The position numbers were made by a program, and so were the translations under genes. 64,000 nucleotides of DNA, from positions 1-64,000 of the forward strand of contig JANXYB010000045.1 in NCBI GenBank assembly GCA_025350325.1, written 5' to 3'. The notes under the pieces are model-generated. The model worked only from the letters and a program-made list of their open reading frames with translations. It was not told the origin of the DNA and did no database searches. The DNA comes from Acidobacteriaceae bacterium (GTDB taxonomy: Bacteria; Acidobacteriota; Terriglobia; Terriglobales; Acidobacteriaceae). Position 1 is the stretch's first letter, and every line of letters begins with the position of its first letter. This document shows, piece after piece, positions 20,243 to 25,935 of the stretch.

Positions 20243-21298
20243 GTGGCTCAAAAAGGGACTCGCAAGAAGAGCGCCGATAATACGCCCGATATACGGGCCG
20301 TAGCCGCGCTTGCCAAGGTTTCTATCGCCACGGTTTCCAGAACCATCAATGGATCCCCGGTGGTTAGCGAGCGCCTTTCCAAGCGCGTGTGGCAAGCCAT
20401 CCAGCATTTGAATTATTTCCCTAATACGCATGCGCGCACGCTGGTCTCGGGCCGCAGCCGCCTACTCGGTATCATCGTTGAAAACATTACGAACCCGTTT
20501 TTTCCTGAACTCATCCAGAGCTTCGAAGAGATCGCCGTAGCGCACGGTTACGAAATTCTGGTCAGTTCTTCAAACAGTGATCCTGCCGTCTTGACCACAT
20601 GCGTTCGCCGAATGTTAGAGCGCAAAGTTGAGGGTGTGGCAGTGCTCACCTTTGGCGAGGAAGAGCCGGTCCTGGACCAATTGGTCTTTCACGACGTTCC
20701 GATGGTTCTTGCCGAATTCAAAGTCGACGTTCCAAAGGTGAGCACGATCTTGCTCGACTACAGCACCGGTATCCGCGCTGCCGTTAAGCACCTTGCTGAT
20801 TTCGGCCACAGCAACATCGGCTTTCTTGCCGGTCCCCATAAGCTGCATTCTGCGGTCACGCGCGAAAACGATTTCTGTGCTTCGATCGATCAAGCGGGGC
20901 TACGCCTGCAGAGGAAATGGATCATCGAATGTGACCACACGCTCAAGGGCGGCGTAGCCGGGTTTGAAAAACTTCAGGCGCTCGAGGCGCGACCAACGGC
21001 CATCCTCTGCTCTAACGACATGACCGCCATTGGAGTCTTGCGCGCGGCCTATATGAAAGGCTTACGCGTACCGCAGGATCTCTCTGTGATTGGCCTGGAT
21101 GACATCAGTTTCGCCGAATTCACACTGCCGCCGCTGACCACAATCCGCCTGTCGCGCACCGAGCTGGCGCACGCCGCATTTGACGCCCTGCGTCAACAAG
21201 CCGAAGATTCCAACAATCCCAACATGCAGCGCGAATTTCTGGTCTCGACCAGTCTCGTAGTTCGGGAATCGACTGCCCCGCCTCCTGCGCGCAAGTAG
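20243..21298 (+). CDS. LacI family transcriptional regulator
   Basis: HTH AVAALAKVSIATVSRTINGSPVVSERLSKRVWQAIQHLNYFPNTHARTLVSGRS plus periplasmic-binding-like domain. Confidence 0.93.
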   Translation: MAQKGTRKKSADNTPDIRAVAALAKVSIATVSRTINGSPVVSERLSKRVWQAIQHLNYFPNTHARTLVSGRSRLLGIIVENITNPFFPELIQSFEEIAVAHGYEILVSSSNSDPAVLTTCVRRMLERKVEGVAVLTFGEEEPVLDQLVFHDVPMVLAEFKVDVPKVSTILLDYSTGIRAAVKHLADFGHSNIGFLAGPHKLHSAVTRENDFCASIDQAGLRLQRKWIIECDHTLKGGVAGFEKLQALEARPTAILCSNDMTAIGVLRAAYMKGLRVPQDLSVIGLDDISFAEFTLPPLTTIRLSRTELAHAAFDALRQQAEDSNNPNMQREFLVSTSLVVRESTAPPPARK

Positions 21299-21956: not shown

Positions 21957-22238
21957 CTAAACGCAGCCCCCGGCGATCGATGGAATCACCAACACCTCAT
22001 CGCCTTCCTTGAAGCTGTACTTCTCGTTGCCAAGAAAGCGAATATCCTCTTCGTTCACATAGAAATTAATGAAGCGGCGAATCTGCCCATCTTCGTTGCG
22101 AAGATGCTGCCGCAACGCCGGAAAGCGTCCTTCAATCTCGGTCACAAGCTCAGATAAATTGGTCGCAGTGCTCGAAATTTCGCGCACGTTGTTAGTGTGT
22201 TTTTGAAATGCGTTCGGTAACAAAACCTTAACGGACAT
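21957..22238 (-). CDS. MoaD/ThiS-family ubiquitin-like sulfur carrier
   Basis: MSVKVLLPNAFQKHTNN...EDIRFL...LKEGDEVLVIPSIAGG-type fold signature; C-terminus reads SIAGGCV. Confidence 0.88.
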   Translation of the reverse strand: MSVKVLLPNAFQKHTNNVREISSTATNLSELVTEIEGRFPALRQHLRNEDGQIRRFINFYVNEEDIRFLGNEKYSFKEGDEVLVIPSIAGGCV

Positions 22239-23556
22239 GATTGCCCCCTGCCGTACTCAGTTGCTGGCGCGTCGCGCCATGTTCTTCAACGTATATTTCA
22301 AAATCAGCGAGCCGCGGACGAATCGCTTCGCTCTGCTCGTAGGCCCCATTCAGGCAATCGGTGGTTTTCAGGCCGTTCCCTGTAATGCATGAGACAGTGA
22401 GTTCGTCGCGCTGAATGCGGCCATGCGCATAGAGCCGTGCCGTAACTGCAGTCGTAACGCCGCCGGCAGTCTCGGTGAAGATGCCTTCGGTCTCCGCCAG
22501 TTCCTGGATAGCCGAAACAATCTCGACATCGGAAACATCTTCGGCCCAGCCGCCTGTCGCGAGAATAGTTCGCGCCGCATACATTCCGTCTGCCGGATTT
22601 CCGATAGCCAGCGAGCGAGCAATCGTGTTGGGTCTCTGCGGCTCAATCACGTCTGTGCCGCCTTTGACCGCCTTGGCGATAGGTGAGCAGCCCGTGGCCT
22701 GCGCACCAAAGAAACGCACTGGCTTTTCGTCTACCAGTCCCAACGCGATCAGTTCGTCAAACGCCTTGCGAATTTTGGTGATCAGCGAGCCGCCGGCCAT
22801 CGGGCAGACAATGTTGTCGGGCAGACGCCAGCCCAGTTGCTCGGCAATCTCGTAGCCAACTGTCTTCGAGCCTTCAGCGTAATAGGGCCGCAGATTGACG
22901 TTTACAAATCCCCAGTTGTAGCGGTCTGCTATCTGCGAACAGAGGCGATTGACGTGGTCGTAATTGCCATCGACACGTACCAGGGTCGCCCCATAGACCT
23001 GCGTGTTGAGGATCTTTGCCGGCTCGAGATCGGCTGGAACGAGAATGAATGTTTTAAGGCCAAGGCGCGCCGCCTGCGCCGCCACCGCATTGGCAAGGTT
23101 GCCCGTGGATGAGCACCCGACCGTATCGAAGCCGAAGTCCTGCGCGTTGGCCAGAGCCACCGCGACAACGCGATCTTTAAAGCTCAACGTGGGCATGCAC
23201 ACGGCATCGTTCTTGAGGTATAAATTGCGGGCGCCGATATGTTCGCCGAGCCGTGGAGCTTCCACCAACGGCGTGAGCCCGGCCGGCGTCTTTGGCACAT
23301 AGCTGTCCCGGACGGGCAGTAAAGCACGGTAGCGCCACATGTTCAAAGGGCCGTTGGCAATAGCGTAGCGGGTGAAACGGGTGCGGGCGTATTCCAGGTC
23401 ATACACGATTTCGAGAGGAGAAAAACAGTCTTCACAAATCGAGAGCGGCTGCAGACCGTAGGTCTTGCCGCATCCTTTACATCGCAACTCGTAAGCAGTC
23501 GTCACAAGTCCCTCGCTATGAACGCGAGTGAAAAAGGTCTGCGAGCGCGTGACCAA
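22228..23556 (-). CDS. thrC: Threonine synthase
   Basis: N-terminal zinc-ribbon-like CKGCGKTYGLQPLSICEDC; PLP motif PTLSFKDRVVAVALA; SSTGNLANAVAA. Confidence 0.9.
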   Translation of the reverse strand: MVTRSQTFFTRVHSEGLVTTAYELRCKGCGKTYGLQPLSICEDCFSPLEIVYDLEYARTRFTRYAIANGPLNMWRYRALLPVRDSYVPKTPAGLTPLVEAPRLGEHIGARNLYLKNDAVCMPTLSFKDRVVAVALANAQDFGFDTVGCSSTGNLANAVAAQAARLGLKTFILVPADLEPAKILNTQVYGATLVRVDGNYDHVNRLCSQIADRYNWGFVNVNLRPYYAEGSKTVGYEIAEQLGWRLPDNIVCPMAGGSLITKIRKAFDELIALGLVDEKPVRFFGAQATGCSPIAKAVKGGTDVIEPQRPNTIARSLAIGNPADGMYAARTILATGGWAEDVSDVEIVSAIQELAETEGIFTETAGGVTTAVTARLYAHGRIQRDELTVSCITGNGLKTTDCLNGAYEQSEAIRPRLADFEIYVEEHGATRQQLSTAGGNHVR

Positions 23557-23889
23557 GCCCAGATAGAGCGAACGTGAGGTGACTCGAAATTACCTGCGAA
23601 GCCGCCTGCGCAAAGAGTGCGTAAGCTGCCCCCGAATCTCATGTTCCCCGTCTCCGGGCAAGAGTTGACACCATACTCCTGGATTGCCCAGGCAGGTTGT
23701 CGTGGCGTCACAGGGCTCGTCCCTCAGCCACTCTGCATGAAACTCAGGCTTGCCCTTTGGGGGCAAACATGAATGTTTAGTTTGTACCATAGGACCTGTT
23801 TTGACGCAACCAATCTTGCAGTGAATGGGTCACGAGGGTATCCGATTGGAGAAAATCGAGCCGGAACCGCATCCAAAGGCCCCCGACAC

Positions 23890-25935
23890 TCATTCCGGAT
23901 GAATCCAGATCGCGTTTCCGCCCCCTGAAACCATCCGAATATCAAGCGTCGTGCTGCGATTGACCTGCTGCTTCGAAAACACCGTGTGGGTCGCATTGAC
24001 CGCTGCGTCGGGAGCGTCCGCATAAATTTCGGCGACGTACTTGCCCTCGCCCAGAAAATTCAGCGGCACCTTAACTGTCCGCTCATCCCAGTTGGTGATC
24101 GAACCGACATACCAGTCGCGGCCGCTGCGTCGAGCCAATGTGATGTTCTCCATCGGCCGTCCAGAGAGCACGCGCACTTCATCCCACGTCGTCGGCACCT
24201 GCTTGATAAATTCAAAATCGTGCTGACCCGCGTAGTGCTCCGGGTAGTCTGAAACCATCATCAGCGGGCTCTCAAGCACGACGTACAGCGCAAGCTCATG
24301 CGCCCGTGTGCCGAGACTCATTGGCATCAAATTGCGCGCGACAAAGTTTTCGCGATTGCTGTTGCCAAACGCTCCCGGGGTGTAATCGAGCGGCCCAGCA
24401 AGCATGCGCGTGAAAGGCAGCGTGGTGTTGTGAACCGGTGACGTGCGCGCACTCCATTTTAGATATTCCTTTCCCATCACCCCTTCGCGCGTGATGACGT
24501 TAGGCCAGGTACGCCGCAGTCCATCGGGTTTGTACGCGCCATGATAGTCGAGCATGAGGTGATGCTCCGCGGCTAGCTCGGCAACGTGGCGGTACCATGC
24601 GACCATCTGCTGGTCGTCCCGATTCATGAAATCGATTTTGACGCCCGCGATTCCCCACTGCTCAAAAAGAGGAAAAGCCTGGTCCATGTATTTGTCGACC
24701 GACGTCCAATGCGACCAGAGCCAGATGCGCACATTCTTTTCTTTCGCATAGCGCAGCAGGTCCGGCATGTCGACGTCTGGATTGACCTGCGTAATGTCGG
24801 CCAAGGCCGCATAATCTTGTGGGCCTTTGCGATTGGCAACTGCCCAGCCCGCATCGATCAACATGTAGGGAAAGCCGGACGCCGAAGCAAAATCGATGTA
24901 GTGCTTCATCGTGGCTGTATTCATCCCGGGCTTGAACGTGGCGCTCGGCGCCGCTTCACCCGACCACCAATCCCACGCCGATTTCCCTTCCCGTATCCAC
25001 GACGTGTCCGTAATCTTCGAAGCAGGATTGAGATTGAGAATGATATTCGATTCGACCAGACGTCCCGGATCATCGGCGATCATCAAGACACGCCAAGGCG
25101 TGGTCAGGGGCGCTTCAGTTTCAACCGCGATGCCCGCCGCATCGATGCGCGGCGACAGCTCGGCGCGCACTCCAAAGGCCACGCCATTTTTGCGCAGGTA
25201 CATGCCCGCGTAGTTTTCGATGTTCGCTTCGGTCACAGCGACCCAGCCCACAGCAGGCACTTCAGCCAGTAGCGGCAGAGCTACCAGCCAATCGCGGTGC
25301 AAGCCGCTCACTTGCCGCTTTTGATACTCGTCTTCATATGAAGACTGGTAGCCATCGAGAACCAGCGGATAGACGGTCGCATCCTTGCTATACCTGAACT
25401 CGGTTAACTCATGCTCAACACGCATTTTTGCAAAGGCCGGCTGAGCAGGAAGAAGGTAGCGGAATGCCACTCCATCGTTGAATGCTTTAACTTCGATTGA
25501 GAGTTCGCGACCCGCAGCGTCTTTGAAATCCACAATTGAGTGGTGATTCAGATCGCGAACGGTTCTGCTTTTGCCCACCGGGATGGAGTACGTCTCGTCG
25601 GTGTCGCCCGAATGTACGCCGACTTGCAGCATGCCCGGTCCCAGCAGATCCCGACCTTCAACCTTGATGCCGAGCGCGGATTCATCCATAAGCCATTTGC
25701 CGTGGAAATCAATGGCGTAGTGCATACCTTTACAGGATGGATCGGTCGCCGGACCCACCGATGAGTCTGAAAGTATCAAAACGATCTGGCCGTCAGGCGA
25801 AGCGATGCGGAGCGGGGGGCTATTCTTCTGCTGTGAAATCGCAAGCAGGGGGCCGCAGCTCATTGCCAACAGACACACGAGTATCGAACGTAGACTTGCC
25901 ATTATTCGCCACCTGAAAAGGGATGGTACCACCAC
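23890..25935 (-). CDS. Glycoside hydrolase family 97 protein
   Basis: N-terminal beta-domain plus barrel: WDWWSGEA...YIDFASASGFPYMLIDAGWA, WGIAGVKIDFMNRDDQQMVAWYRHVAELAAEHHLMLDYHGAYKPDGLRRTWPN. Confidence 0.9.
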   Translation of the reverse strand: MVVPSLFRWRIMASLRSILVCLLAMSCGPLLAISQQKNSPPLRIASPDGQIVLILSDSSVGPATDPSCKGMHYAIDFHGKWLMDESALGIKVEGRDLLGPGMLQVGVHSGDTDETYSIPVGKSRTVRDLNHHSIVDFKDAAGRELSIEVKAFNDGVAFRYLLPAQPAFAKMRVEHELTEFRYSKDATVYPLVLDGYQSSYEDEYQKRQVSGLHRDWLVALPLLAEVPAVGWVAVTEANIENYAGMYLRKNGVAFGVRAELSPRIDAAGIAVETEAPLTTPWRVLMIADDPGRLVESNIILNLNPASKITDTSWIREGKSAWDWWSGEAAPSATFKPGMNTATMKHYIDFASASGFPYMLIDAGWAVANRKGPQDYAALADITQVNPDVDMPDLLRYAKEKNVRIWLWSHWTSVDKYMDQAFPLFEQWGIAGVKIDFMNRDDQQMVAWYRHVAELAAEHHLMLDYHGAYKPDGLRRTWPNVITREGVMGKEYLKWSARTSPVHNTTLPFTRMLAGPLDYTPGAFGNSNRENFVARNLMPMSLGTRAHELALYVVLESPLMMVSDYPEHYAGQHDFEFIKQVPTTWDEVRVLSGRPMENITLARRSGRDWYVGSITNWDERTVKVPLNFLGEGKYVAEIYADAPDAAVNATHTVFSKQQVNRSTTLDIRMVSGGGNAIWIHPE

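Follow-up and report, generated by a model that had tools for sequence, protein, structure and literature searches.

The locus raises the question of why a gene for a sulfur carrier protein, whose product ends in Gly-Gly-Cys-Val, should overlap a gene resembling that of threonine synthase. Both genes lie on the reverse strand of the 64-kb stretch of Acidobacteriaceae DNA analysed here (the window), and an earlier note made from the sequence had described them as a ThiS/MoaD-like carrier with a GGCV tail that overlaps thrC by 11 nt. This description was confirmed by the open reading frames (21957-22238(-) and 22228-23556(-)) and by a match of the carrier to PF02597. The evidence presented below makes it very probable that the window operon is of the MetM/MetO type, serves methionine biosynthesis and is repressed by SAM. 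MetM is a homocysteine synthase of Streptomyces, and in S. albulus its gene carries a SAM riboswitch and is neighboured by the carrier gene metO (PMC12172450, 2025, citing Hasebe et al. 2024, AEM 90:e01247-24).

The metO-like gene (21957..22238, reverse strand) encodes a beta-grasp sulfur carrier of 93 amino acids with a Pfam ThiS match of 42.9 bits (cut-off 22.5). An AlphaFold2 model of the carrier had a pLDDT of 89.7, with the lowest confidence at residues 90-93, and its best matches in the PDB were CysO (3dwg_C and 4n6e_B, from CysM:CysO and BexX:CysO complexes). SAMP1 and Urm1 were also among the structural matches, and the closest relative both by structure and by sequence was CysO. The metM-like gene (22228..23505, reverse strand) encodes a paralogue of threonine synthase, a PLP enzyme of fold type II with an N-terminal 4-Cys motif (PALP, 229 bits; TIGR00260, 277 bits) that exceeds the thrC equivalog cut-off of TIGR00260. 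Its open frame extends back to a TTG at 23556 (22228-23556(-)), but judging from the GCGAGGGA just upstream of it the GTG at 23505 is probably the start. The stop of the metM-like gene and the start of the metO-like gene overlap by 11 nt (22228..22238, reverse strand), the Shine-Dalgarno sequence of the carrier (GGGGG) sits within the upstream gene, and the two genes are likely to be translationally coupled through this overlap. The neighbouring genes, judged from translation only, resemble a glycoside hydrolase (23890-25935(-)) and a LacI-type regulator (20243-21298(+)) and are apparently unrelated to the operon.

The carrier terminates in VIPSIAGGCV* (codons GCC GGG GGC TGC GTT TAG), and the Cys-Val codons after Gly-Gly (21960..21965, reverse strand) are predicted, from the sequence and the tails of relatives, to specify a pro-peptide removed by a JAMM protease. 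In 23 other genomes of the family the carriers ended in AGG followed by CV, CI, CC, C, TL, SL, AI, SF, IA, TI, CK, CM or a longer extension, and one stopped exactly at GG. AGG was invariant in the carrier family and was followed by one or two variable residues in nearly all members, sometimes by about 10-30. A sequencing error at the tail was ruled out because AGG with extra residues of like kind recurs in these relatives, and tails were found across many phyla. Carriers with a tail of about 80 residues after the Gly-Gly were present in the metM operons L099, L105, L113, L120 and L124, and in the three tested with Pfam (L099, L105 and L124) this tail was a NIL domain; a further locus with a NIL-type tailed carrier (L111) was cut by the contig end. 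A fusion between carrier and ThrC was considered and rejected, since the long frames with distant carriers that were read were carrier-MoeB or JAMM-carrier-MoeB fusions.

The earlier note saw neither a JAMM protease nor an adenylyltransferase in the window, suggested that the carrier is activated by proteins encoded elsewhere, asked for a genome search for both partners and held that their absence would count against the pathway. That objection falls away because both exist: in the host genome (99% complete) exactly one Prok-JAB and one ThiF/MoeB match were found, both on contig C79 and none in the 64-kb window, which is consistent with activation from outside the window. The JAMM protein (Prok-JAB, 78.5 bits) has an intact HxH-x7-S-x2-D motif (HSHPDHPAQWSSTD) and the E1 protein bears a rhodanese domain. 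They are encoded in a cluster (L006:3744-8948) with the order cysM-JAMM-(unassigned)-cysO-(unassigned)-moeB/rhodanese, in which the second carrier of the genome, CysO, is also tailed and ends in GGCSLKG. As a separate observation, plasmid pACIB of Aliarcobacter cibarius (L096) carries genes for a cysteine synthase, an M67 (JAMM) peptidase, a MoaD/ThiS protein, a rhodanese and a family 2A encapsulin, split by two transposases. MoeZR is a known example of an E1 that serves more than one carrier, namely CysO, MoaD1 and MoaD2 (PMC3227635). We infer that the C79 JAMM and the C79 E1 serve the metO-like carrier.

The distributions of tails and JAMM genes were compared using Fisher's exact test, with JAMM presence scored by E-value from genome tables. 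With kinship ignored throughout, JAMM was present in 25/25 genomes with tailed carriers and absent from 6/14 with untailed carriers in the phylum sample (one-sided p = 9×10−4; five of the six were from family f18), and in the 50 genomes reached via the 80 best loci outside the family it was present in 26/26 tailed genomes while 10/24 untailed genomes were without a strong JAMM (p = 2×10−4), giving 51/51 versus 22/38 for the combined sets, with 16/38 untailed genomes lacking it (p = 1.3×10−7). Untailed carriers thus occur in JAMM genomes too, which indicates that JAMM has other work. Given this co-occurrence, Cys-Val is probably removed by the only JAMM of the genome, and the simplest reading is that JAMM exposes Gly-Gly and leaves the remaining tail free to vary.

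It is also conceivable that the pathway operates as proposed here and the tail is cut by another peptidase or retained. The MoaD-MoaE fusion MoaX of M. tuberculosis is cut after GG by a protease reported as unidentified (PMC4326299), and this may be taken in favour of such a peptidase. The third ThiS protein of the host genome is likewise a MoaD-MoaE fusion (L007:4772-5497, contig C53) with VSGG at the junction, for which, by analogy, the single JAMM of the genome is a candidate cutter. The tails also vary freely, so that the cutter, whichever it is, would depend only on GG. Against another peptidase or retention stand the association of tails with JAMM described above and the requirement of E1 adenylation for a free C-terminal glycine, which is established for MoaD, ThiS and CysO. 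We regard this alternative as unlikely and removal by the C79 JAMM as the preferred reading.

The regulation of the operon points to its function. A full-length SAM-I (S-box) riboswitch aptamer (23636..23743, reverse strand; RF00162, model positions 1-108/108) was found directly 5' of the metM-like gene on the same strand, 130 nt ahead of the GTG, with a score of 70.7 bits (gathering threshold 44.4, E = 1.6×10−14). It was the only Rfam match in the 64-kb window and the sole SAM riboswitch found in the host genome, and the genome search found none before the C79 CysO/CysM cluster. SAM-I was located at the same place in 19 of the 20 family genomes whose upstream DNA was examined, upstream of metM in distant Acidobacteriota (L058, L067, L071, L072, L077, L081, L084, L085 and L086) and in 15/32 loci from other collections, including Nonomuraea (Actinomycetota), Planctomycetota and Verrucomicrobiota; at L118 a SAM riboswitch is followed by E1-metM-metO. 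In three loci of distant Acidobacteriota (L059, L060 and L065, family f70) SAM-II (SAM_alpha, RF00521) takes the place of SAM-I before metM. Two unrelated SAM sensors ahead of one gene pair are a strong argument for a role in methionine synthesis, and the RF00162 match upstream suggests that the window operon shares the SAM control that is a trait of MetM/MetO. This control favours methionine/homocysteine over cysteine and threonine. The mode of control may be translational: in a possible expression platform (23501..23587, reverse strand), deduced from the minimum-free-energy fold and the sequence, GUCACCUC could form base pairs with GAGG, the Shine-Dalgarno sequence, and with GUGAC at the start, the fold of the leader having a z-score of only -1.2, which is not significantly stable. 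An intrinsic terminator after the riboswitch was rejected, as there was no terminator-like site on that strand.

The association of enzyme and carrier was highly conserved. The orthologous enzyme adjoins the carrier in 24/24 family genomes having this carrier (65-81% identity in the relatives), and six of the seven sampled family genomes without this carrier were also without the enzyme. The exception (G023, locus L074) has metM, preceded by SAM-I, on a short contig with no carrier beside it; a different contig holds the single carrier match of that genome. Outside the family, a carrier gene was found downstream of metM in 75 of the best 80 loci, which represent many phyla, with E1 in the same locus in 25 cases and JAMM in 12. 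The order at L055 is metM-metO-rhodanese-E1, and at L059 and L066 the pair stands beside cysM-JAMM-CysO~MoeB. In 11 Nitrospirota loci (L127, L128, L130, L137, L140, L143, L144, L146, L165, L169 and L173) a canonical ThrC is encoded just downstream of metM-metO, suggesting that both enzymes use the same intermediate side by side.

The host genome encodes three ThrC-like proteins, L015 (contig C52), L012 (contig C98) and the window enzyme. A housekeeping ThrC would be the sole ThrC of its genome or linked to thrB, and neither applies to the window enzyme, since L015 adjoins the homoserine kinase gene (thrB). In a tree of 40 sequences the enzyme of the window and the relatives linked to a carrier gene formed one side of a 100/100 branch, with L015 and the ThrC of Thermus, Aquifex and Nitrospirota on the other; MetM is represented on its side by a Nonomuraea MetM-like protein in place of the S. 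albulus sequence. The two sides also differ in conserved ThrC residues as numbered in Thermus: R160 is replaced by Tyr and N157 by Arg in 123/123 MetM-clade enzymes, whereas R and N are kept in 17/18 other ThrC, a motif that is partly circular for the best 80 loci, which were picked with it, and not circular for the Acidobacteriota set, which was picked by whole-protein similarity. N188 is Gly or Ser in the MetM clade and Asn in other ThrC. The window enzyme has Tyr and Gly in place of Arg160 and Asn188, which we take to be the contacts of Thermus ThrC to the phosphate of O-phosphohomoserine.

The equivalog match to thrC would also be expected if the enzyme were an ordinary or bifunctional threonine synthase and the carrier a neighbour without a role in the reaction. 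A Microcystis homologue, 51.6% to MetM, did form threonine from O-phosphohomoserine in vitro and was judged not fully MetM; the assay used Na2S in place of a thiocarboxylated carrier (PMC12172450). However, a thrB-linked ThrC is present elsewhere in the genome, the operon appears to be regulated by SAM and not by threonine, a canonical ThrC lies beside metM in Nitrospirota and the carrier stays adjacent to the enzyme across many phyla. Together with the replacement of the two presumed phosphate contacts by Tyr and Gly/Ser, this makes a plain threonine synthase quite improbable. The earlier note called the gene thrC, although the housekeeping gene of that name is the one on C52. Its proposal of a protein-thiocarboxylate pathway tied to this enzyme gains support from the MetM clade, the conserved pair and the partner genes, although it overlooked the SAM-I riboswitch and did not name the MetM/MetO precedent; of the two products it considered, homocysteine is favoured by the riboswitch and cysteine is not.

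Cysteine formation from O-phosphoserine in the manner of CysM/CysO would fit the close relationship of the carrier to CysO, and M. tuberculosis CysM does use O-phosphoserine with CysO (PMC3227635). Against this, a CysM-JAMM-CysO-E1 cluster is encoded separately in the genome, as are further CysK-like genes besides the C79 CysM, the partner of the carrier is ThrC-like and not of the CysM family, and the switch senses SAM, so that we consider this extremely unlikely. Hardly more credible is a carrier that acts mainly as a ubiquitin-like protein modifier deconjugated by JAMM, for which the structural matches to SAMP1 and Urm1 and the pair SAMP1 and HvJAMM1 (PMC4443979) could be quoted, given that the carrier shares a SAM-controlled operon with a PLP enzyme and that some genomes have carrier and enzyme but no JAMM.

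As a SAM-repressed operon of the MetM/MetO type, the window pair would function as follows. At low SAM the S-box leader would permit translation of the two coupled genes, and MetO would be synthesized as a pro-protein ending in AGG-CV. The C79 JAMM, common to the CysO/CysM pathway, would clip Cys-Val to give a free Gly-Gly, and the C79 E1-rhodanese, the only one in the genome, would adenylate the MetO C-terminus and lead to the thiocarboxylate. MetM would eliminate phosphate from O-phosphohomoserine, the product of the homoserine kinase encoded elsewhere in the genome, and take sulfur from MetO-COSH to form homocysteine, which would be freed either directly or once JAMM had cleaved a carrier adduct. 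The host genome also encodes MetX and MetY in addition to homoserine kinase, so that homocysteine could be made without metM-metO; this pair may be a second, SAM-controlled route beside MetX-MetY. Complementarity between MetX and MetM in the family was partial at best: the host has both routes, MetX is missing from G036 and G179, which have MetM, and MetM is missing from G007, which has MetX.

Tentatively, the tail could be a control point of methionine synthesis, with MetO stored as a pro-protein and its trimming by JAMM regulated, though the odds are rather against it. The NIL domain type, a putative methionine-binding domain, occurs also in the methionine transporter MetN, and a NIL tail could therefore let the end product gate the release of active carrier on top of the riboswitch. 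Through the tailed and NIL-fused carriers methionine synthesis becomes connected with a JAMM protease, and its regulation becomes testable. As MetM-clade enzymes pass the NCBI threonine synthase model they are likely to be misnamed in many genomes, and the clade signature together with a SAM riboswitch and an adjoining carrier offers a simple rule for reannotation of a homocysteine route in many bacterial phyla.

Iyer 2006 was rejected as a source of the link between carrier and ThrC, as threonine synthase is absent from its main text. The nearest known system is MetM/MetO of Streptomyces, with which the window shares a ThrC-like PLP enzyme, an adjoining carrier gene and a SAM riboswitch upstream. 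In Nonomuraea (locus L094) the genes stand in this order too and the VNVNLRPYYAEGSKT motif recurs, but the carrier there ends exactly in AGG, whereas that of the window ends in GG-Cys-Val and would need trimming. For the Streptomyces pair, Hasebe et al. (2024, AEM) reportedly obtained homocysteine from O-phosphohomoserine and MetO-COSH. The HcyS/HcyD/HcyF-MetY system of Wolinella succinogenes, reported by Krishnamoorthy and Begley in 2011, likewise forms homocysteine from a carrier thiocarboxylate, as proposed here, and combines a residue after GG with a JAMM that reportedly removes it; the enzyme there is MetY, reportedly acting on O-acetylhomoserine, in place of a ThrC-like MetM, and in our case JAMM and E1 lie outside the window operon. 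QbsE also has two residues after GG, removed by the JAMM protease QbsD, and differs in belonging to a secondary-metabolite thiocarboxylate pathway without a ThrC-like enzyme. In M. tuberculosis, CysO-CysM-Mec+ works together with MoeZR (PMC3227635), and this system resembles the proposed one in carrier fold, E1-rhodanese, JAMM and a PLP enzyme. It differs in making cysteine from O-phosphoserine with another PLP subfamily, and the host has its own cluster of this type, with the tailed CysO and no SAM riboswitch found before it. The MetM/MetO pathway is thus already known, as is the tail/JAMM principle in QbsE/QbsD and HcyS/HcyD; judged by the sources consulted, what is new is that MetO can be tailed or fused to NIL, that tails are statistically associated with JAMM, that control can be by SAM-II and that the system ranges over many phyla.
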